Source: a virus
Direction: 5' to 3' (one strand)
Virus record (IMG/VR): IMGVR_UViG_3300044623_000784
Location: 54,085-118,084 of that record
Length of the DNA stretch: 64,000 bases
In this document: positions 28,418-64,000 of the stretch, in pieces
How positions within the stretch are numbered: position 1 is the first letter of the stretch
Layout of the letters: the number at the start of each line of letters is the position of its first letter
Notes under the pieces: generated by a model
Told to the model about the DNA's origin: nothing
Database searches by the model: none
The model's input: only the letters and a program-made list of their open reading frames with translations
Program-made: the position numbers and the translations under genes

Positions 28418-29080
28418 TTAAAATTTATTCTCTTCATAAAAACCTGTAATTTTTATAAAGCCTACTGTAACATAACGAATTGGTCCTTCTGTTACAAAAC
28501 GAACTCCGTGTTCATATTCTTCATTTCCTGGGAAAAGAAGTAATGTTCCTGGCTTTGGCCTTAAGTCTGAATTTTCTTTATTCTTAAAGAATAGAGTTCC
28601 ATCCTTATAGTCATCGTTGATATACAGTATAGCAGCATATTTAATCGATGGGTCTGTGTGTTGGTCTGTGTGAGACTTTAACTCAACTCCAGCCTGCATT
28701 CTCTGGAGTGTTCCAAATCCAGCAAGTTCTAGAGATGGATCTGCTAAGGTTAGAAGTTTTCCAAGTCTTAACTGAAGAGTTCTGCTAATCTCTTTATCTG
28801 TGATGTCTAGGTTTTTATCTTCCCAACCTTGAGTTATTTCAAACTTACCTTCAGCAACTAGGTTGTCAACATCATCTCGTCCAAACTTTTCCATACAAAA
28901 TCTAGCAAGATTCTTTGTATACTCGATTGACCAGTCTTCATTGGGCGTTATCTTGATTATGTCTAGCAACGTATCTAACTCATTGTCTTTTAAAAAGTCG
29001 TTAATAAATAAAACGCCATCGTGAAATACTTCGGTGTTATATCCTGCATCATCAAACTCTTTTTTTAAAAAGACTTCCAT
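28418..29080 (-). CDS. 2-oxoglutarate/Fe(II) dioxygenase 2
   Basis: 220 aa. Iron ligands His137-x-Asp139 (KSHTDQ) and His191 (YEHGVRFV); Arg202 for 2-oxoglutarate; strand motifs ILYINDDYKDGTLFF and KPGTLLLFPG. All catalytic residues are intact. The ATG directly follows the preceding stop. The N-terminal 115 residues (VLFINDFLKDNELDTLL) form the cap usual for P4H-like proteins. Confidence 0.88.
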   Translation of the reverse strand: MEVFLKKEFDDAGYNTEVFHDGVLFINDFLKDNELDTLLDIIKITPNEDWSIEYTKNLARFCMEKFGRDDVDNLVAEGKFEITQGWEDKNLDITDKEISRTLQLRLGKLLTLADPSLELAGFGTLQRMQAGVELKSHTDQHTDPSIKYAAILYINDDYKDGTLFFKNKENSDLRPKPGTLLLFPGNEEYEHGVRFVTEGPIRYVTVGFIKITGFYEENKF

Positions 29081-50299: not shown

Positions 50300-51055
50300 T
50301 TAAGCACCTGTTGCAGGGAATACTGCAGTAACTATTCCTGAGTCAATTGGATTTGTAACAAGTGTTGCGTGTTCTACTGTAAACTTATTTGCTGGAGTTC
50401 CAATAAGAGAATATGGCTGCTTTGCACTTACTGTAATTTTTGCAAGATACACTGTTGAAGCAACAAAATTTCCAACCAAAGGAGTTGTTCCATTAGATTC
50501 AAACCAGGAGACTGTTCCTGAATGTTCTGCTGTTTCAAATACTGATGAAACTGGTGTTGCTCCTTTAACTGGTTTTGTGACTCCTCTAATATTATAGTTT
50601 GAAAGTGTTGGACGGTTATTTGGATTTGCTCCAGTAACTTGGTCTGTAATAGTTATCTTGCCTGTCATCAGCGTGTATACTTTTTCATAAAAAGGATTTT
50701 CGTAATTTCCTTCTGCTGCCCTTACCTCAACGTCATAGACATACTCTGTTCCAGCATTTAGTTCTACTGAGTCAGACGGTCTAATTGCACACTGAACAAA
50801 TGTTCCGTCATCTGATATTTTAGCAAAACATTTAATTGGGGTTCCTGCAGATCCACGAACGGTAGATATTGTAAACTGAGCGCTATCATATGGGGCTGAA
50901 ACGTCCAAAGCATAGTCTGGACTATTTGCAAAATTTGTTGGCACTGTAAAAGCACCTAAAAGGTGAGATGTTCCGTCGTCCTTTTTCGGGTAGATACGAA
51001 ACTCAAAGGTATCACCCTTATAATAATTAAAGTCATAGGTCGCTGGAAATGCCAT
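50300..51055 (-). CDS. Baseplate/fibre-associated beta-sandwich protein B
   Basis: 251 aa. Opens with YDFNYYKGDTFEFRIYPKKD, the GDT-type beta motif shared with two other small proteins of this region, then an Ig-like second half (KPVKGATPVSSVFETAEHS, TVSWFESNGTTPLVG, VYLAKITVSAKQPYSLIGTP) typical of phage surface-exposed Ig modules. Leaderless by the 6-nt spacing from TATAAT (51067-51062). Confidence 0.65.
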   Translation of the reverse strand: MAFPATYDFNYYKGDTFEFRIYPKKDDGTSHLLGAFTVPTNFANSPDYALDVSAPYDSAQFTISTVRGSAGTPIKCFAKISDDGTFVQCAIRPSDSVELNAGTEYVYDVEVRAAEGNYENPFYEKVYTLMTGKITITDQVTGANPNNRPTLSNYNIRGVTKPVKGATPVSSVFETAEHSGTVSWFESNGTTPLVGNFVASTVYLAKITVSAKQPYSLIGTPANKFTVEHATLVTNPIDSGIVTAVFPATGA

Positions 51056-56629: not shown

Positions 56630-56653
56630 ATTCTACACTAGGGGACTGACAAA
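56630..56653 (-). promoter_or_regulatory. Class-A promoter (TGTCA-11-TAGAAT), minus strand
   Basis: TTTGTCAGTCCCC, then TAGAAT (56635-56630); exactly 11 bases separate TGTCA from the -10, as in three plus-strand copies at 57107, 58121 and 59351. Confidence 0.6.
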
Positions 56654-56686
56654 ACCAGCCCTATTTGGGGGTGTGTTGGTGTGTGC

Positions 56687-56863
56687 TTAGTCACACTGTC
56701 CGCATGGGCACTGTGGGAACTCACGCTCCTGCTTAATGCGGTTAGCCATACGCTCAACCTTGATGTAGGTATCGGCAGAGGCTCCTCTAAAGGACACTAC
56801 CTGACCATTTGCTACCATGTGGGCAGCCTTAGCGATTTTTTGTTCTAATGTTAGTGAATTCAT
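56687..56863 (-). CDS. 58-residue protein with C-terminal CPCGQC motif
   Basis: MNSLTLEQKIAKAAHMVANG, a basic helical middle (KVERMANRIKQERE), then PQCPCGQCD, a likely metal-binding tail. GAAAGGAATT before the ATG. It is the first gene of the left-going cluster. The 54-aa protein at 57371 also has CPCGQ. Confidence 0.7.
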   Translation of the reverse strand: MNSLTLEQKIAKAAHMVANGQVVSFRGASADTYIKVERMANRIKQEREFPQCPCGQCD

Positions 56864-57043
56864 TTTGAATTCCTTTCTTTATTTTCTATAGTAGAATACT
56901 ATCACACAATACCCCAAAAGTCAAGTCCAAACACGGCGTGTCGTATGTGATTTATACCACACTGATCGCACGTGCCATTTTGTCAAGTCGACACACCGAT
57001 ACTACTAGGATTGTTACGCTATTGTTATAATTCCCCCGATAAA

Positions 57044-57075
57044 TGTGACCTACCTCTCATGTGATACACCTCACA
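57044..57075. promoter_or_regulatory. Tandem Crp/GlxR-type sites
   Basis: TGTGACCTACCTCTCA then TGTGATACACCTCACA; the second fits TGTGA-N6-TCACA perfectly. Its centre is about 69 bases before the predicted start of the class-A promoter, a usual place for a Crp-family activator. Confidence 0.65.
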
Positions 57076-57106
57076 ATGTCCGATTTATCCCATTTATACC
57101 CCTCAA

Positions 57107-57130
57107 TTTGTCAGACCCCCCTGCTATACT
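57107..57130 (+). promoter_or_regulatory. Class-A promoter 1
   Basis: TTTGTCAGACCCCCCTGC then TATACT (57125-57130). There is no good -35 at 17 bases; the conserved TTTGTCAG-CCCC block at fixed distance suggests a special factor. Confidence 0.6.
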
Positions 57131-57185
57131 TACAGTATCAAGAAAAAATGAGGTAAAGAAATCCTCTAAAGAAAGGTGGTCTAAA

Positions 57186-57374
57186 ATGACTACACTAACA
57201 ATAACAAAATGCTCAGAGTTTTCAGAGCATAACCCTATGAAATCTGCTATCTCAGAAATTGGAGATGAGCAATTTACTTTCTGCCAAGATTGTGAAAATA
57301 ACATTGAGCGTTGGTATGATGATACCGACCCTGAGCGTCTACCTATGTGGACAAGATGGAAGGTGTCTAAATGA
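57186..57374 (+). CDS. Small Cys-containing unknown protein
   Basis: 62 aa from the ATG at 57186 (AAAGGTGG upstream), not from an earlier frame-open ATG that lies before the promoter. TLTITKCSEFSEHNPMKS then FCQDCENNIERWYDD; CQDC may bind a metal. First gene of the right-going cluster. Confidence 0.7.
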   Translation: MTTLTITKCSEFSEHNPMKSAISEIGDEQFTFCQDCENNIERWYDDTDPERLPMWTRWKVSK

Positions 57375-57535
57375 GTATTTGGACTAAATTCGCTACTGTA
57401 AGCGATTACCCTAAAGGCTTAATGAACCTATGCCCATGCGGTCAGGTTGTATTAGCCCCCGCCCTCTACCATGAGGGTCAGCCTTATTGGGAAAATCCTA
57501 ATAAGTGTAAAGAATTATTCGAAGGAGTAAAATAA
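57371..57535 (+). CDS. 54-residue CPCGQ protein
   Basis: ATGA overlap with the previous stop. MSIWTKFATVSDYPKGLMNL then CPCGQVVLAP and a final CKELFEGVK. Zinc-ribbon-like. Confidence 0.68.
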   Translation: MSIWTKFATVSDYPKGLMNLCPCGQVVLAPALYHEGQPYWENPNKCKELFEGVK

Positions 57536-57702
57536 TGAGTACCTATGTAAACCTCGCCTCAGTATGTGGCGCAACATCAGCAAGCGTTGATGTCTATGAC
57601 TTAGACCTTAACCCTCACGGGGTTATCTGTTGCGATAACTGTAAGTCTATCGTGTTATGCCGTAAGGCTTGGGATTTTCTTTATAAGGAGAATAAAAAAT
57701 GA
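57535..57702 (+). CDS. 55-residue Cys-rich protein
   Basis: TAATG overlap. MSTYVNLASVCGATSASVDV then VICCDNCKSIVLCRKAWDF; five Cys in zinc-ribbon-like spacing. Unknown role. Confidence 0.68.
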   Translation: MSTYVNLASVCGATSASVDVYDLDLNPHGVICCDNCKSIVLCRKAWDFLYKENKK

Positions 57703-57794
57703 AAACACTCCAACAAAAATTAGATGAAAGCGCAATTGCGTTAGAACCAATACTTTGGGAATTGCTAAATGAAATTGAGGAAACTAATGAATAA
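57699..57794 (+). CDS. 31-residue acidic helical peptide
   Basis: MKTLQQKLDESAIALEPILW then ELLNEIEETNE; ATGA overlap with the gene before and overlap with the gene after, AAGGAG upstream. An amphipathic helix is likely. Short, so moderate confidence. Confidence 0.6.
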   Translation: MKTLQQKLDESAIALEPILWELLNEIEETNE

Positions 57795-57876
57795 CTTTTT
57801 TGTAAGCGGTAACGCATTGTTTTGGTTTTCTTTTATTTGTTTATTTTATGGCGCTTATTTATTTGTAAAAGAATAA
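57787..57876 (+). CDS. 29-residue membrane peptide
   Basis: MNNFFVSGNALFWFSFICLF then YGAYLFVKE: one hydrophobic helix. Overlaps the previous gene and ends 9 nt before a terminator, as the last gene of the operon. Confidence 0.55.
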   Translation: MNNFFVSGNALFWFSFICLFYGAYLFVKE

Positions 57877-57884
57877 ATAAAAAA

Positions 57885-57914
57885 GATCGCAGAAATAAAA
57901 CACTGCGATTTTTC
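57885..57914 (+). terminator. Terminator of the first right-going operon
   Basis: ATCGCA / TGCGAT stem (57886-57909), 12-base loop, then TTTTT. CACGTG follows at once (57915-57920). Confidence 0.75.
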
Positions 57915-57923
57915 CACGTGGCG

Positions 57924-57944
57924 TTTTCCACAGGCTGTGGATAA
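57924..57944. promoter_or_regulatory. Inverted pair of DnaA-box-like sites
   Basis: TTTTCCACA (57924-57932) facing TTATCCACA on the other strand (57944-57936), 3 bases apart. Could be DnaA boxes of a replication origin or simply a TCCACA/TGTGGA hairpin. CACGTG stands 3 bases upstream. Confidence 0.5.
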
Positions 57945-57948
57945 CTAA

Positions 57949-57964
57949 TGTGTTTAAGGTCACA
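57949..57964. promoter_or_regulatory. Crp-type site, one mismatch
   Basis: TGTGTTTAAGGTCACA. The TTAAGG spacer is shared with the one-mismatch site at 62111-62126. Confidence 0.45.
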
Positions 57965-57995
57965 CAAATATTTTCCCATTTTACGGCGTGTCGAT

Positions 57996-58024
57996 TTGAC
58001 TTTTTGACTTTTATCTGCTAGTAT
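57996..58024 (+). promoter_or_regulatory. Standard promoter before the second right-going operon
   Basis: TTGACT, 17-base spacer, TAGTAT; just after GGCGTGTC (57985-57992). Its transcript would run through the repeats and second promoter at 58121. Confidence 0.5.
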
Positions 58025-58060
58025 TGCTACTATAACAATTAAATAAAGATAAATAAGCAA

Positions 58061-58115
58061 TGAGCCTTAGCAAATAAATGTGACCAGTATCACAGTGAGC
58101 CTAAGCAAATAAGTG
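58061..58115 (+). repeat. Direct repeats flanking a perfect Crp-type site
   Basis: TGAGCCTTAGCAAATAAATG (58061-58080) and TGAGCCTAAGCAAATAAGTG (58096-58115) differ at two positions, repeat distance 35 bases. TGTGACCAGTATCACA (58079-58094, perfect TGTGA-N6-TCACA) lies between them. Candidate activator/operator cluster for the promoter at 58121. Confidence 0.65.
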
Positions 58116-58120
58116 CCTAA

Positions 58121-58144
58121 TTTGTCAGCCCCCCCTGTTATACT
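58121..58144 (+). promoter_or_regulatory. Class-A promoter 2
   Basis: TTTGTCAGCCCCCCCTGT then TATACT (58139-58144), 11 bases between TGTCA and the -10. Confidence 0.6.
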
Positions 58145-58175
58145 TAATTATACAAACAAACGAAAGGTAGTCAAA

Positions 58176-58361
58176 ATGACTTACACTATAACACTAGAAA
58201 CCTTTACAGGTTCTACCAAAAAAATCAGCCTTGCCTCTAAAGGTGCGGTTGCTCAATTCATCTCAACTTATCCAACACAATTACCTGTTGGCGTATCTGT
58301 AAAAATGTCGTGTGACGCTTTAGGCGTTAGCGGTGTTCTTAGAGGAAAGGCGGTTCTATAA
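58176..58361 (+). CDS. Small protein, paralogue of 56045-56326
   Basis: 61 aa from the ATG at 58176 (AAAGGTAG upstream). MTYTITLETFTGSTKKISLA to VLRGKAVL matches the minus-strand paralogue across its length. Two related genes on opposite sides of the divergent control region suggest an old duplication. Unknown function. Confidence 0.7.
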   Translation: MTYTITLETFTGSTKKISLASKGAVAQFISTYPTQLPVGVSVKMSCDALGVSGVLRGKAVL

Positions 58362-58517
58362 ATGATAAACTCCGTCTTAACAATTCCCTGCGAGGAATGC
58401 CACTCAACAGGTTTAATCTTTTTTGGCGATAATGATAATTTCGATGTCGAAACTTGCGTATGCGATTTCGGTATGGAACAAGACTTAAACTTATTTAACA
58501 CACCCGAAGCAAACTAA
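58362..58517 (+). CDS. 51-residue Cys protein
   Basis: MINSVLTIPCEECHSTGLIF, later ETCVCDFG: C-x2-C and C-x-C pairs, probably a zinc-binding fold like a single DnaJ-type repeat (CEECHSTG). Follows the previous stop directly. Confidence 0.68.
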   Translation: MINSVLTIPCEECHSTGLIFFGDNDNFDVETCVCDFGMEQDLNLFNTPEAN

Positions 58518-58537
58518 AAGAATAGGAAATAAAATAA

Positions 58538-58744
58538 ATGGTAAAAGTAGAACACTCACTAAAGTTCGTAACAGAGTTTGATGAAACTCATCCAGTGGCA
58601 CAACATGCCTTATCGATACCTCACTCAGATTTAATTGCTATGCTTGAGGGAATGCTAAAAGATTTAGTAGCGCCTGCGCTAAAAGAAACACTTGACGAGA
58701 TAAATGCTCGTGGGTCCTACGCAATTCTAAAGGTGGCCGAATAA
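58538..58744 (+). CDS. Unknown 68-aa protein
   Basis: MVKVEHSLKFVTEFDETHPV then a helical part (HSDLIAMLEGMLKDLVAPAL). TAGGAAATAA before the ATG. No family recognised. Confidence 0.7.
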   Translation: MVKVEHSLKFVTEFDETHPVAQHALSIPHSDLIAMLEGMLKDLVAPALKETLDEINARGSYAILKVAE

Positions 58745-58944
58745 TGATGACTCGTAAAGACTATGTAAAGGTTGCCGAAATTCTTAGCAATTACTTTGCT
58801 ACATCTGTTTTTGATGAGCAAGGAGAAATGCTGTTCGCTGATTTAGTGGATGAATTTTCTCTAATGTTTGAAACAGATAATCCAAGATTTGACGCAAACA
58901 GATTTGCTCTTGCTTGCTATAAAGAATTGGAGATGAGTAAATGA
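58744..58944 (+). CDS. Unknown 66-aa protein
   Basis: Starts at overlapping TAATGATG (58744 or 58747). TRKDYVKVAEILSNYFATSV, then DEFSLMFETDNPRFDANRF. This pattern is common among small actinophage hypothetical proteins; function unknown. Confidence 0.7.
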   Translation: MMTRKDYVKVAEILSNYFATSVFDEQGEMLFADLVDEFSLMFETDNPRFDANRFALACYKELEMSK

Positions 58945-59093
58945 TTTTAGATAACGGAACACTAATTGCAATTGTAATTGCTTTGGCTGGATCTCTTTCA
59001 ATGATGTTATTATTTTGGAAACAAAATGTAGAACAACAAAAAGAAATTCGCAGACTTCAAGTTGCTTTGCGAACTGAACGACTTAAAAAATAA
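58941..59093 (+). CDS. 50-residue membrane protein with basic tail
   Basis: MILDNGTLIAIVIALAGSLS then MMLLFWKQN: one membrane helix, followed by a charged helix (QQKEIRRLQVALRTERLKK). ATGA overlap with the gene before. Last gene of its operon, as with the membrane peptide at 57787. Confidence 0.65.
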   Translation: MILDNGTLIAIVIALAGSLSMMLLFWKQNVEQQKEIRRLQVALRTERLKK

Positions 59094-59103
59094 AATAAAT
59101 TCC

Positions 59104-59126
59104 TGAGCATGAATAAAAACTGCTCA
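59104..59126 (+). ncRNA. Conserved hairpin, copy 1
   Basis: TGAGCA, 11-base loop TGAATAAAAAC, TGCTCA, followed by AAAATTT. Same loop length and loop ends (TG...AAAC) as copies at 62677, 63177 and 63464; stem bases covary. Confidence 0.65.
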
Positions 59127-59142
59127 AAATTTCACGTGGGGT

Positions 59143-59163
59143 TTATCCACAGGGTTATACACA
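59143..59163 (+). promoter_or_regulatory. Two direct DnaA-box-like sites
   Basis: TTATCCACA (59143-59151) and TTATACACA (59155-59163), both fitting the TTATNCACA DnaA consensus, 12 bases apart. Candidate origin or DnaA-titration site. Confidence 0.55.
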
Positions 59164-59350
59164 GGGTGATTTATGATGTTGGTTACGACACTCCCGAAAT
59201 TTTGTGAGATTAATCACACGACTTGAGCGTCTCACTATTTAAGATTACTCGCTAGTAGGTTGATAATTTATGAGTAATAGGCTAGACTTACATAGTAAGA
59301 AAAAATAAATAAAAGAAAGTCTATCCGCATACGGCGTGTCTAACCGAAAA

Positions 59351-59372
59351 TGTCAGACCCCTATGATAGGAT
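59351..59372 (+). promoter_or_regulatory. Class-A promoter 3
   Basis: TGTCAGACCCCTATGA then TAGGAT (59367-59372), again 11 bases between TGTCA and the -10. Confidence 0.55.
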
Positions 59373-59403: not shown

Positions 59404-59616
59404 ATGTCCGCAAATGTCTACACTATCGAAAGCCTACTTGTAGGAAAAACTTATCACTCTCGCACACTAAAGGGAGAAATTATCTCAGCAGAAAAGTCTG
59501 ATGTCTGGTATGGAACAGATACAGAAAGTTATCGTGTTCAGGTTCGCCCTCACTACTCAGCCCCACTTAATCTAAAAGATACTTATCGTATTCTCGCAGT
59601 AAGGATAAATGACTAA
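59404..59616 (+). CDS. Small SH3-like beta protein, member 1
   Basis: 70 aa; AAAGAGGC before the ATG. YTIESLLVGKTYHSRTLKGE, IISAEKSDVWYGTDTESYR. It weakly resembles the two paralogues at 62220 and 62496 (V/I-G-x-T/F-x-x-x-x-x-x-G-x-I). Function unknown. Confidence 0.68.
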   Translation: MSANVYTIESLLVGKTYHSRTLKGEIISAEKSDVWYGTDTESYRVQVRPHYSAPLNLKDTYRILAVRIND

Positions 59617-60861: not shown

Positions 60862-60877
60862 TGTGAGATTTGTCACA
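60862..60877. promoter_or_regulatory. Perfect Crp/GlxR-type site
   Basis: TGTGAGATTTGTCACA fits TGTGA-N6-TCACA; centred about 54 bases before the predicted start of the promoter at 60887-60916. Confidence 0.65.
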
Positions 60878-60886
60878 GTTTAAGAT

Positions 60887-60916
60887 TTGACATTTTTTCC
60901 CCATGTATGCTAAGAT
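60887..60916 (+). promoter_or_regulatory. Standard promoter for a leaderless gene
   Basis: TTGACA (60887-60892), 18-base spacer, TAAGAT (60911-60916), then 6 nt to the ATG at 60923. Confidence 0.65.
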
Positions 60917-60922
60917 TAATTT

Positions 60923-61075
60923 ATGAAGAAAAATCCAGAGGAATTACGCAGGCTTATGGAATTACGCCGTAGCAACGCTGCCTCTGCCGTACCCTCTAAA
61001 AAGAAATATACTCGCAAGGGTAGAAAATGTCAGTCAGAAATGCTACAATTAGATAAACAACAAAAAGGAGAATAG
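60923..61075 (+). CDS. 50-residue basic protein
   Basis: MKKNPEELRRLMELRRSNAA, SAVPSKKKYTRKGRKCQS. Strongly basic, so nucleic-acid binding is plausible. Leaderless by promoter spacing. Confidence 0.65.
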   Translation: MKKNPEELRRLMELRRSNAASAVPSKKKYTRKGRKCQSEMLQLDKQQKGE

Positions 61076-61079
61076 CCCC

Positions 61080-61256
61080 ATGGGAAATATCGCAGATGAA
61101 TTTTATGATGAATACTACGCAACAACCTGCCCTGAATGTAAAGAAAATGCCGTTGACGCATATGAGGAAAAATGTACTCATTGCTTGCTAGAAGAAATGT
61201 CCGCACACTACAATGAAGACATTGCTCTAGAAATGAGTCTAGGCCTTGACTACTAA
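61080..61256 (+). CDS. 58-residue zinc-ribbon-like protein
   Basis: MGNIADEFYDEYYATTCPEC then YEEKCTHCLLEEMSAHY: CPEC and CTHC, 12 residues apart, a classic zinc-ribbon arrangement in an otherwise acidic protein. AAAGGAGA before the ATG. Confidence 0.72.
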   Translation: MGNIADEFYDEYYATTCPECKENAVDAYEEKCTHCLLEEMSAHYNEDIALEMSLGLDY

Positions 61257-61980
61257 TACACTTAAACTAAAAAGATCTAAAGACAGAAAGGTCGCTAATG
61301 CCGTCACCTCTAATGGAAAACAAGCAAGTATCGCAAATACCTTTGGCCTACCTGCTGGAAAGGCTTTCTCGTGCCCTGGTGCCACTAGTGTATGTGAAAG
61401 CGTATGCTACGCAGGAAAACTCGAAAAGGTATTCCCAACCGTAAAGGTTAACCTATTACACAATTGGGCCCTGCTAAAAGACGCAGACTATTTAACTATG
61501 CTTAATCTCATTGCTGAGATGATTGCTGATTTCAAGGCTGATTGTATAAAGAAAGACGCACCTATGCTATTTCGCATTCACTGGGACGGAGATTTCTTTA
61601 ACGATACTTATGCCACTGCCTGGTCCGATGTAATCAAACTTAATCCTGATATTCAATTCTGGGTATACACTCGTGTTAAGTCTGCTGCTCTAATCCTTAA
61701 AGACATTGAAAACCTATCACTTTACTTTTCTGCTGATAGTGAGAATGTTAAAACTGCCGTTGATCTAAAAATTAATAGCGGTGTTCGCATGGCATACCTT
61801 GCTAAGAATTTTGCTATCGGTCAAGCCGATGTAAAAGAAATGATTGGTAAGCCTGCTGCTAAGTGTCCTGAGAATAATAAACAAATTCCACTTATCTCAT
61901 CCGCTGGCTCCGCTTGCGTTTCTTGCTCATTGTGTGTATACTCTAAGAGTGACATAATTTTTTCTGCGACTAAGAAATGA
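61246..61980 (+). CDS. GP88-like Cys-rich phage protein
   Basis: 244 aa from a TTG overlapping the previous gene by 11 nt; no closer start exists, so translation is likely coupled. Resembles the phage GP88 family: CPGATSVCESVCYAGK near 42, FRIHWDGDFFNDTYATAW, FWVYTRVKSA, then CPENNKQIP and CVSCSLCVYSKSD. Seven or more cysteines suggest an Fe-S cluster or zinc. The family's function is not known to me; it is common in actinophages. Confidence 0.75.
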   Translation: MTTNTLKLKRSKDRKVANAVTSNGKQASIANTFGLPAGKAFSCPGATSVCESVCYAGKLEKVFPTVKVNLLHNWALLKDADYLTMLNLIAEMIADFKADCIKKDAPMLFRIHWDGDFFNDTYATAWSDVIKLNPDIQFWVYTRVKSAALILKDIENLSLYFSADSENVKTAVDLKINSGVRMAYLAKNFAIGQADVKEMIGKPAAKCPENNKQIPLISSAGSACVSCSLCVYSKSDIIFSATKK

Positions 61981-62060: not shown

Positions 62061-62110
62061 TCCACGTGGGCAAAACTTTTGGTTTGTCAAGTTGCGACAC
62101 GCCTTTAAGA

Positions 62111-62495: not shown

Positions 62496-62660
62496 ATGGC
62501 AGTAGCAACAGCAACTTACAAAGTCGGAGATACTTTCACGACACAGAAGTCAAAGGTCAGCGGAGTAATCACAGAGATTACACCACAGGCTAATGGAAAT
62601 GTTCGTGTAAAGTTAGATGTAAATGGCGCAACTCGTTATACAACTTGGACGGCTAAGTAA
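62496..62660 (+). CDS. Small SH3-like beta protein, member 3
   Basis: 54 aa: MAVATATYKVGDTFTTQKSK, VSGVITEITP, VRVKLDVNGATRYTTWTAK. Paralogue of member 2. AAAAGAGAAAC before the ATG and its own promoter suggest strong expression. Confidence 0.72.
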   Translation: MAVATATYKVGDTFTTQKSKVSGVITEITPQANGNVRVKLDVNGATRYTTWTAK

Positions 62661-62676
62661 GTAAATAGTTTATTCC

Positions 62677-62699
62677 TGAGTATGAATTAAAACTACTCA
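62677..62699 (+). ncRNA. Conserved hairpin, copy 2
   Basis: TGAGTA, loop TGAATTAAAAC, TACTCA. The stem differs from copy 1 at both partners (C-G to T-A), a compensatory change. Followed by an A/C-rich CACCCCCAAC. Confidence 0.65.
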
Positions 62700-62739
62700 A
62701 CACCCCCAACTAATACCCCACAAAAGAAAAGAGAAACAA

Positions 62740-63162
62740 ATGGCTAGAGCAAAAGCAATCTCAGTTAAAATCGCAACACCAAAGGTAATCAAGGCACTAG
62801 AAAGCGCACTTTCTAAGTTAGAAAAAGACTTCTCAACACAAGAAGCAAACGAAGCAAAGTATCAGAAGTCACACGAAGCATGGAAAAAGGAAATTGGAAA
62901 GTGGGCTATTGCTAACTTCTCAAAGGCTGAAAACCTACGCACCAACTATCGTAATTGGAACAACACTCTCAATGTTGATTTCGACATTGTTACTAAGGAA
63001 GGCACTTTCCCTGCCGAGCCTGAGCGTGAGTTCGAGCAAATCGGTCATCACACTTATCGTGAGTCAAAGAAGGAATTGGAAAACGCAATCCGTATTCTTA
63101 AAATGACAGATGAGGAAACTGTAAATACTAGCACCTATAATGCGGTTGCTCAGTATCTCTAA
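62740..63162 (+). CDS. Unknown 140-aa basic helical protein
   Basis: ARAKAISVKIATPKVIKALE, then a coiled, Lys-rich middle (LSKLEKDFSTQEANEAKYQ) and NYRNWNNTLNVDFDIVTKEG. AAAAGAGAAAC before the ATG. No family recognised. Codon choice looks optimised (GCA, AAG, CTA), like its neighbours with strong promoters. Confidence 0.72.
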   Translation: MARAKAISVKIATPKVIKALESALSKLEKDFSTQEANEAKYQKSHEAWKKEIGKWAIANFSKAENLRTNYRNWNNTLNVDFDIVTKEGTFPAEPEREFEQIGHHTYRESKKELENAIRILKMTDEETVNTSTYNAVAQYL

Positions 63163-63176
63163 TTAAACCAACAACC

Positions 63177-63199
63177 TGAGTATGTTGATAAACTGCTCA
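63177..63199 (+). ncRNA. Conserved hairpin, copy 3
   Basis: TGAGTA, loop TGTTGATAAAC, TGCTCA (one G-U pair). Followed by CCCACCCCCAC. Confidence 0.65.
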
Positions 63200-63229
63200 C
63201 CCACCCCCACTCAACGAAAAGGATTTAAA

Positions 63230-63382
63230 ATGTATAATTTCACTATCACACAAGGCAAGAAGACTATTCTCCAGTTTACAGATAAGACTGCTATCAAGGC
63301 TCATGCTATCGTAACTACCGCCAACGAATTGGCTAAGTATAAGAGCCAGCACCTATCGTATACATACCAGTACGCAAAGTAA
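63230..63382 (+). CDS. 50-residue unknown protein
   Basis: MYNFTITQGKKTILQFTDKT, AIKAHAIVTTANELAKYKSQ. GAAAAGGATT before the ATG. Small alpha/beta protein, unknown role. Confidence 0.65.
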   Translation: MYNFTITQGKKTILQFTDKTAIKAHAIVTTANELAKYKSQHLSYTYQYAK

Positions 63383-63463
63383 TTAGACTTCGCCAGGCTG
63401 ATTAGGGCGATCATATAAATACTATAGAGCCAGTTCACACCAACTGCAAGAAGTGTAACTACC

Positions 63464-63486
63464 TGAGTATGTATCAAAACTGCTCC
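63464..63486 (+). ncRNA. Conserved hairpin, copy 4
   Basis: TGAGTA, loop TGTATCAAAAC, TGCTCC (outer pair lost, one G-U). The gap 63383-63560 otherwise holds the promoter at 63499-63528. Confidence 0.6.
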
Positions 63487-63498
63487 CCGCAAGGGCCC

Positions 63499-63528
63499 TT
63501 GACAAATATCCTTGGGCACCTGTACAAT
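63499..63528 (+). promoter_or_regulatory. Strong standard promoter
   Basis: TTGACA, 18-base spacer, TACAAT; just after a GGGCCCTT stretch. Confidence 0.7.
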
Positions 63529-63560
63529 TGAATTAACCAACAAACAGAAAGAGGGCCCCC

Positions 63561-63980
63561 ATGGACCAAGTAACAAAAGTAGACAATCACTACATGACAC
63601 GAGAGTTTTTAGAAACTCAGTTAGTAGAAAACAAAAAGCGTATTGAACAACTTGAAGAGCACATTCAGAAAGTAACTCAGCGTTCATATGGTGAGGCTGC
63701 AGAGCGCAACCGTATGCGTAATGAAATGCAAGAGTGGACCTTGGAAGCGCTAGAGAATGCAAACATCAATGAATCAGAAGCAGAAGAGATTGCTAGCATT
63801 TGTGGATTTGAGTTAACAAAAGAATTCGAATTGGAAGTTTCAGTTCAGTATTCAATTACAGTTAATGCAAGAGATGAAGAGAGTGCACAAAACTTAATTC
63901 ATGACATTGATTTTGATTCAGTCTCATATGGTGAAGAAGTAACTTACTTATCATCCAGTGTTGACAGAATAGATATTTAG
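63561..63980 (+). CDS. Coiled-coil protein with small C-terminal domain
   Basis: 139 aa. Residues 10-65 form a coiled coil (FLETQLVENKKRIEQLEEHI); the C-terminal 60 residues are beta-alpha-beta (ELEVSVQYSITVNARDEES, AQNLIHDIDFDSVSYGEEV). AGAAAGAGG before the ATG. Similar proteins of unknown role occur in actinophage early regions. The 41-aa protein at 60144 resembles its C-terminal domain. Confidence 0.72.
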   Translation: MDQVTKVDNHYMTREFLETQLVENKKRIEQLEEHIQKVTQRSYGEAAERNRMRNEMQEWTLEALENANINESEAEEIASICGFELTKEFELEVSVQYSITVNARDEESAQNLIHDIDFDSVSYGEEVTYLSSSVDRIDI

Positions 63981-64000
63981 TAGGGGGCTACTAAAGGACC

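Follow-up and report, generated by a model that had tools for sequence, protein, structure and literature searches.

A promoter class with an element at -26 in a phage small-gene cluster, probably of the PafBC type

What reads a promoter whose conserved upstream element lies too close to the -10 box to serve as a normal -35? The question is raised by a 64,000-nucleotide stretch of viral DNA (the window: bases 54085-118084 of the linear IMG/VR phage record IMGVR_UViG_3300044623_000784, which is 118,084 bases long). Here an initial annotation had described four copies of TGTCA, each with exactly 11 bases to a -10 box and a shared CCCC run, and had suggested a special sigma factor or activator. 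All four copies are present, and we found a fifth. The promoters fall in a cluster of small open reading frames (ORFs) near the right end of the window; apart from a GP88-family gene at 61246, few genes of this cluster have a known function. The comparisons described below point to promoters of the PafBC (RecA-NDp) type, probably read by an activator that the host supplies.

Spacing and conservation of the TGTCAG element

The putative PafBC-type promoters of the window are the following, with scores from a phage-family weight matrix:

56630-56651, minus strand: -26 TGTCAG at 56651-56646 and -10 TAGAAT at 56635-56630, reading TGTCA-GTCCCCTAGTG-TAGAAT; matrix score 24.6; first downstream ORF 56597-56454 (minus strand)
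57109-57130, plus strand: TGTCAG with TGC ahead of the -10 TATACT, reading TGTCA-GACCCCCCTGC-TATACT; matrix score 33.5; predicted to drive ORF 57186-57374 and the small ORFs behind it
58123-58144, plus strand: TGTCAG with TGT ahead of the -10 TATACT, reading TGTCA-GCCCCCCCTGT-TATACT; matrix score 31.6; predicted to drive ORF 58176-58361 and the ORFs behind it
59351-59372, plus strand: TGTCAG with TGA ahead of the -10 TAGGAT, reading TGTCA-GACCCCTATGA-TAGGAT; matrix score 29.2; predicted to drive ORF 59404-59616 and the ORFs behind it
61028-61049, plus strand: the fifth copy, absent from the initial annotation; TGTCAG with TGC ahead of the -10 TACAAT, reading TGTCA-GTCAGAAATGC-TACAAT; matrix score 27.4; ahead of ORF 61080-61256 and the GP88 gene (61246-61980)

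Across the whole record, 8 matches to TGTCAG-N10-TAnnnT have a good -10 box, against 0.27 expected (at most 1 in 30 shuffled controls generated from a second-order Markov model), and spacings of 8-10 and 12-14 bases give 0 or 1 match each. The matrix, which was built from the related phages, finds seven sites scoring at least 18 and none in the shuffles; one of the eight matches, at record base 50821, is weak and receives no score. Two further TGTCAG sites lie outside the window at record bases 776 and 1436, and both additionally have an ordinary TTGAC(A/T) at -35.

We then compared 159 loci of related viral contigs, found by searching with the protein products of the GP88 gene and of the DUF932 gene at record base 1489. 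These loci have a single spacing peak, with 695 distinct sites at 11 bases versus 2-15 at neighbouring spacings. TGTCGG peaks at a spacing of 11 too (26 sites), and TGTC[CT]G and TGTCA[ACT] have no peak: after TGTC only A or G is accepted, and the invariant core is TGTC(A/G)G. The logo of the phage family reads AA[AT][AT]TGTCAG-[TAC]-[CG]-[CG]-C...TGn-TATAAT. The motif scan confirmed the class in the record and in its relatives, and in both a spacing of 11 stands alone. The C run fared less well. It survives as a preference, three spacer positions being 50-57% C across the phage family, and was rejected as a defining feature because the promoter at 61028 lacks it.

Common ancestry of the sites was rejected as the source of the spacing peak: 173-178 sites persist after thinning to <70% identity, and the set used here holds 174. 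A ribosome site and start codon follow 134 of these 174 non-redundant sites, versus 25 on the opposite strand, and in 91 of the 134 they lie 50-59 bases from the T of TGTCAG. The pattern occurred in all 49 long records tested, with few matches to the reversed control, and in the longest records with matches listed most sites fall within one stretch of about 10-20 kb.

The promoters of the DUF932 gene separate the element from the -35. At least five of its six letters are kept in 80 of 80 viral relatives, 78 of which have TGTCAG or TGTCGG, while TTGACT at -35 gives way to TTTGCA or TTGTAT. Because one is kept as the other drifts, selection appears to act on the -26 element and not on the -35.

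Likeness to PafBC promoters

What, then, could read this element? The actinobacterial LexA/RecA-independent damage promoter has the consensus tTGTCRgtg-8 nt-TAnnnT (PMC5656591). PafBC at this -26 element lets the housekeeping sigma factor work without a -35: the helix-turn-helix of PafB takes the element, that of PafC contacts sigma region 4, and the activating signal is single-stranded DNA bound to the WYL domains (PMC11804915). The phage element agrees with the published consensus in its TTGTCR core at about -26, the purine after TGTC, the spacing and the TAnnnT -10 box. The G after the core is also present; at the two positions behind it the phages have 57% T and 32% G, and TC, AC or CC is the more frequent pair.

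The same element occurs in bacteria of the candidate host order, which we took to be that of the sole bacterial metagenome-assembled genome (MAG), an actinobacterial one, holding a related phage contig. HTH_PafC is found in all 61 genomes examined from this presumed host order (1.2-2.2 Mb). Of 30 recA loci in the order, 16 have a promoter with TGTCAG at the same spacing, and several of these sites overlap an SOS box; TTGTCAGTGGCGCCTGCTACCTT, for example, continues into one. The strict consensus has about 50 matches in the 61 genomes versus 6 for the reversed pattern. These matches precede recA and genes read as recR, CarD and a LexA-boxed DUF6504-like gene (names taken from protein starts, not from a search), and several sites lie 29-30 bases ahead of an ATG, as expected for leaderless messages, which would put the start about 28 bases after the T of TGTCAG. 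When a recA-like pattern was scanned over 2.9 million viral contigs, 113 of 120 stretches among the matches listed encoded homologues of this phage's proteins.

A phage-encoded WYL or PafBC activator was looked for as well, but neither this record nor 49 relatives yielded a WYL-domain protein; these records may be incomplete. The host's PafBC is therefore the most likely activator. LexA (SOS) control was rejected, because the 2.7 Mb of viral loci hold just 13 LexA-type boxes. We conclude that the promoters of the small-gene cluster are probably of the PafBC type and served by the host's own PafBC. Of the two readers first suggested, the activator is thus supported by the match to the PafBC class, and no special sigma factor is needed. 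More broadly, the data suggest that a large family of freshwater actinobacterial viruses copies its likely hosts' damage-response promoters and borrows PafBC. Among the papers searched for PafBC together with phages, none reported phage PafBC promoters.

Three other readers have to be weighed, each of which explains less of the evidence than host PafBC. The phage itself could supply an activator, WhiB-like or an unrecognised small protein, that binds TGTCAG at -26 and brings in the host polymerase, in which case the likeness to PafBC would be convergence or mimicry. It does encode a WhiB-like protein and many small proteins without known function, and MotA of phage T4 is a precedent for an activator box near the -10. 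We nevertheless consider this reading unlikely: the element matches a host-type consensus in core, A/G choice, spacing and -10, nothing WYL- or PafBC-like appeared among the phage proteins of the record or the 49 relatives, and the phage would have to make or inject such an activator before these genes could be transcribed.

Less probable still is that these are ordinary extended -10 housekeeping promoters, with TGTCAG as the operator bound by a phage repressor or a general silencer. Cluster A mycobacteriophage stoperators contain TGTCA, TGn precedes the -10 in half of the sites, and a -35-like hexamer is kept in about one fifth of the non-redundant sites. Stoperators are scattered, however, whereas 424 of 447 copies of the element have a -10 at exactly 11 bases in one orientation; in most sites the -35 match does not exceed chance, and at the DUF932 promoters it is the -26 element that is kept. 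An alternative sigma factor of host or phage, reading TGTCAG and the -10 through a short spacer as the initial annotation had raised, is very improbable: two isolated Nanopelagicales phages do encode a sigma-70 factor (PMC10202952) and a weak region-4-like match (E 0.003) occurs among this phage's proteins, but the -10 has the housekeeping form TAnnnT, 11 bases do not fit the usual spacer geometry of sigma-70, and one fifth of the sites coincide with a normal -35 served by the same -10.

Upstream palindromes and a proposed mechanism

The host PafBC may not act alone. CRP-type palindromes lie upstream of these promoters and of ordinary ones, two of which are given for contrast:

56680-56695, unstranded: CRP-type palindrome with one mismatch, TGTGTGCTTAGTCACA; centre 36.5 bases upstream of the T of the 56651 minus-strand promoter, the commonest spacing
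57060-57075, unstranded: CRP-type palindrome TGTGATACACCTCACA, upstream of the 57109 promoter; centre 41.5 bases from the T, half a turn off the commonest phase
57996-58024, plus strand: ordinary housekeeping-type promoter, TTGACT-17-TAGTAT, upstream of the 58123 promoter
58079-58094, unstranded: CRP-type palindrome TGTGACCAGTATCACA; centre 36.5 bases upstream of the T of the 58123 promoter, in the commonest phase
59203-59218, unstranded: CRP-type palindrome TGTGAGATTAATCACA, farther upstream of the 59351 promoter
60862-60877, unstranded: CRP-type palindrome TGTGAGATTTGTCACA, ahead of a TTGACA promoter
60887-60916, plus strand: ordinary housekeeping-type promoter, TTGACA-18-TAAGAT

TGTGA-N6-TCACA occurs 424 times with a gap of 6 versus 0-6 times with other gaps. 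Upstream of the non-redundant promoters the palindrome centres lie at -36, -46 and -56/-57 from the T of TGTCAG, in helical steps, or at about -64, -74 and -85 from the estimated start. TTGAC promoters have the same phasing, with palindromes 42, 52 and 62 bases from the -10. In the candidate host order, HTH_Crp is found in 58 of 61 genomes, one of them with the gene read beside an nth-like gene.

In the mechanism that we propose, TGTC(A/G)G at about -28 to -23 would replace the -35 by sigma adaptation: PafB would read the -26 element with its helix-turn-helix and that of PafC would contact region 4 of the housekeeping sigma factor, by analogy with mycobacteria, and RNA polymerase would then open the (TGn)TAnnnT -10. 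Because PafBC needs bound single-stranded DNA to be active, the phage genes would be driven when infection exposes such DNA through entry, replication or host DNA breakdown. Host Crp at the phased palindromes would serve as a class-I-like activator of many of these promoters. Early timing is suggested by the homologous genes of Streptomyces relatives, which lie near the ends of the records, twice in each. We infer PafBC binding, its dependence on single-stranded DNA, the early timing, the role of Crp and the identity of the host from these patterns. The fullest version of the proposal, which could as well be wrong as right, is that lytic actinophages have wired probable host-takeover genes to PafBC as the host's sensor of single-stranded DNA, together with Crp and perhaps DnaA; single-stranded DNA arising in the infection would then feed back on phage expression.

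Several observations weigh against a role for host PafBC. The isolated Streptomyces relatives Navo, Yaboi and Annadreamy have no excess of TGTCRG at a spacing of 11 and use TTGAC-17-TAnnnT; their hosts belong to a phylum in which PafBC is widespread, yet the class is unused. After the core, AC or TC often stands in the phage sites in place of the TG of the mycobacterial consensus (letters given in lower case, as less conserved), and the one fifth of non-redundant sites with a -35-like hexamer could have basal activity without PafBC. Host assignment rests on one MAG, whose phage relative uses TTGACA: this contig, RGSB01000062.1, has the same gene cluster with TTGACA-type promoters, that of the DUF932 gene included, instead of TGTCAG-type ones, and the wider family thus varies in promoter type. 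Finally, perfect CRP sites are not enriched in the 61 candidate host genomes and were rejected as a host regulon of that order; for this reason the palindromes may be read by a phage protein or by a host from another group.

General use of the class by actinophages was rejected, as neither the three Streptomyces phages nor one cluster A-type Mycobacterium phage has an excess at 11. A good PafBC-type match, TGTCGGTG-CCCGCTCG-TAAGAT, is present at 28654 in Microbacterium phage Blett, 78 bases ahead of a gene for a single-stranded-DNA-binding protein; it may be due to chance.

Other repeated elements share the cluster. GGCGTGTC(G) stands in the same intergenic regions as the promoters (window 56935, 57985 and 59333 on the plus strand, 62096-62103 on the minus strand), numbers 611 versus 3 for the reversed control in the 159 viral loci and often lies 3 or 5 bases ahead of a TTGAC -35. 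The DnaA-box-like TTATCCACA, at 57924-57944 and 59143-59163 of the window, is strongly enriched in the cluster, with 860 copies in those loci versus 13 for the reversed control, and perhaps marks an origin or a further host input. An inverted repeat, TGAGCA-N11-TGCTCA, follows genes at window 59104-59126, 62677-62699 and 63177-63199, and in the viral loci 490 copies have a gap of exactly 11, none a gap of 4-10, and at most 34 any other gap. The two ends of the record (window 62590-63990 and record bases 1-1270) hold similar, not identical gene copies that differ in promoter, with TGTCAG at record base 776 and none at window 63499; it looks as if the contig breaks off within a repeated region.

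Comparison with known systems

PafBC is the main DNA-damage activator of mycobacteria, recognised only recently and known from bacterial chromosomes. If the proposal is right, phage genes would gain a damage-linked timing besides that set by a phage's own sigma factor or activator and by LexA-type induction, and the host DNA-damage response would double as a resource for a widespread family of freshwater phages. In lakes, DNA damage (for example by sunlight) would then be linked to the expression of phage genes in a way that can be tested. For the study of how PafBC reads the -26 element, several hundred natural promoter variants are already at hand as a data set.

The closest known counterparts are the chromosomal RecA-NDp/PafBC promoters such as Mycobacterium recA P1, which share the TTGTCR core followed by G, the 11 bases from TGTCR to TAnnnT and an unneeded -35. 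The phage promoters differ from them in standing on lytic-type genomes, in about 5-15 copies within one gene cluster, with a C-rich spacer, with CRP-type palindromes in common use, and with ac or tc often replacing the published tg after the core. The middle promoters of phage T4 likewise have an activator box in place of the housekeeping -35, the MotA box at about -30 that acts with AsiA; T4 supplies its own activator and anti-sigma factor, whereas here no phage WYL protein was found in the record or its 49 relatives and a host activator is the likely reader. Class I CRP promoters resemble these in an upstream TGTGA-N6-TCACA with 10-bp phasing. Their centres in Escherichia coli are -61.5, -71.5 and -82.5; the phage palindromes, with the estimated centres given above, differ in being joined to a PafBC-type element. 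The Streptomyces phages of the Stanwilliamsviridae named above, lastly, have a homologous DUF932 gene and a similar gene cluster, with the GP88 gene in Navo and Yaboi, and differ in the promoters that serve it: TTGAC-17-TAnnnT there, TGTCRG at a spacing of 11 here.

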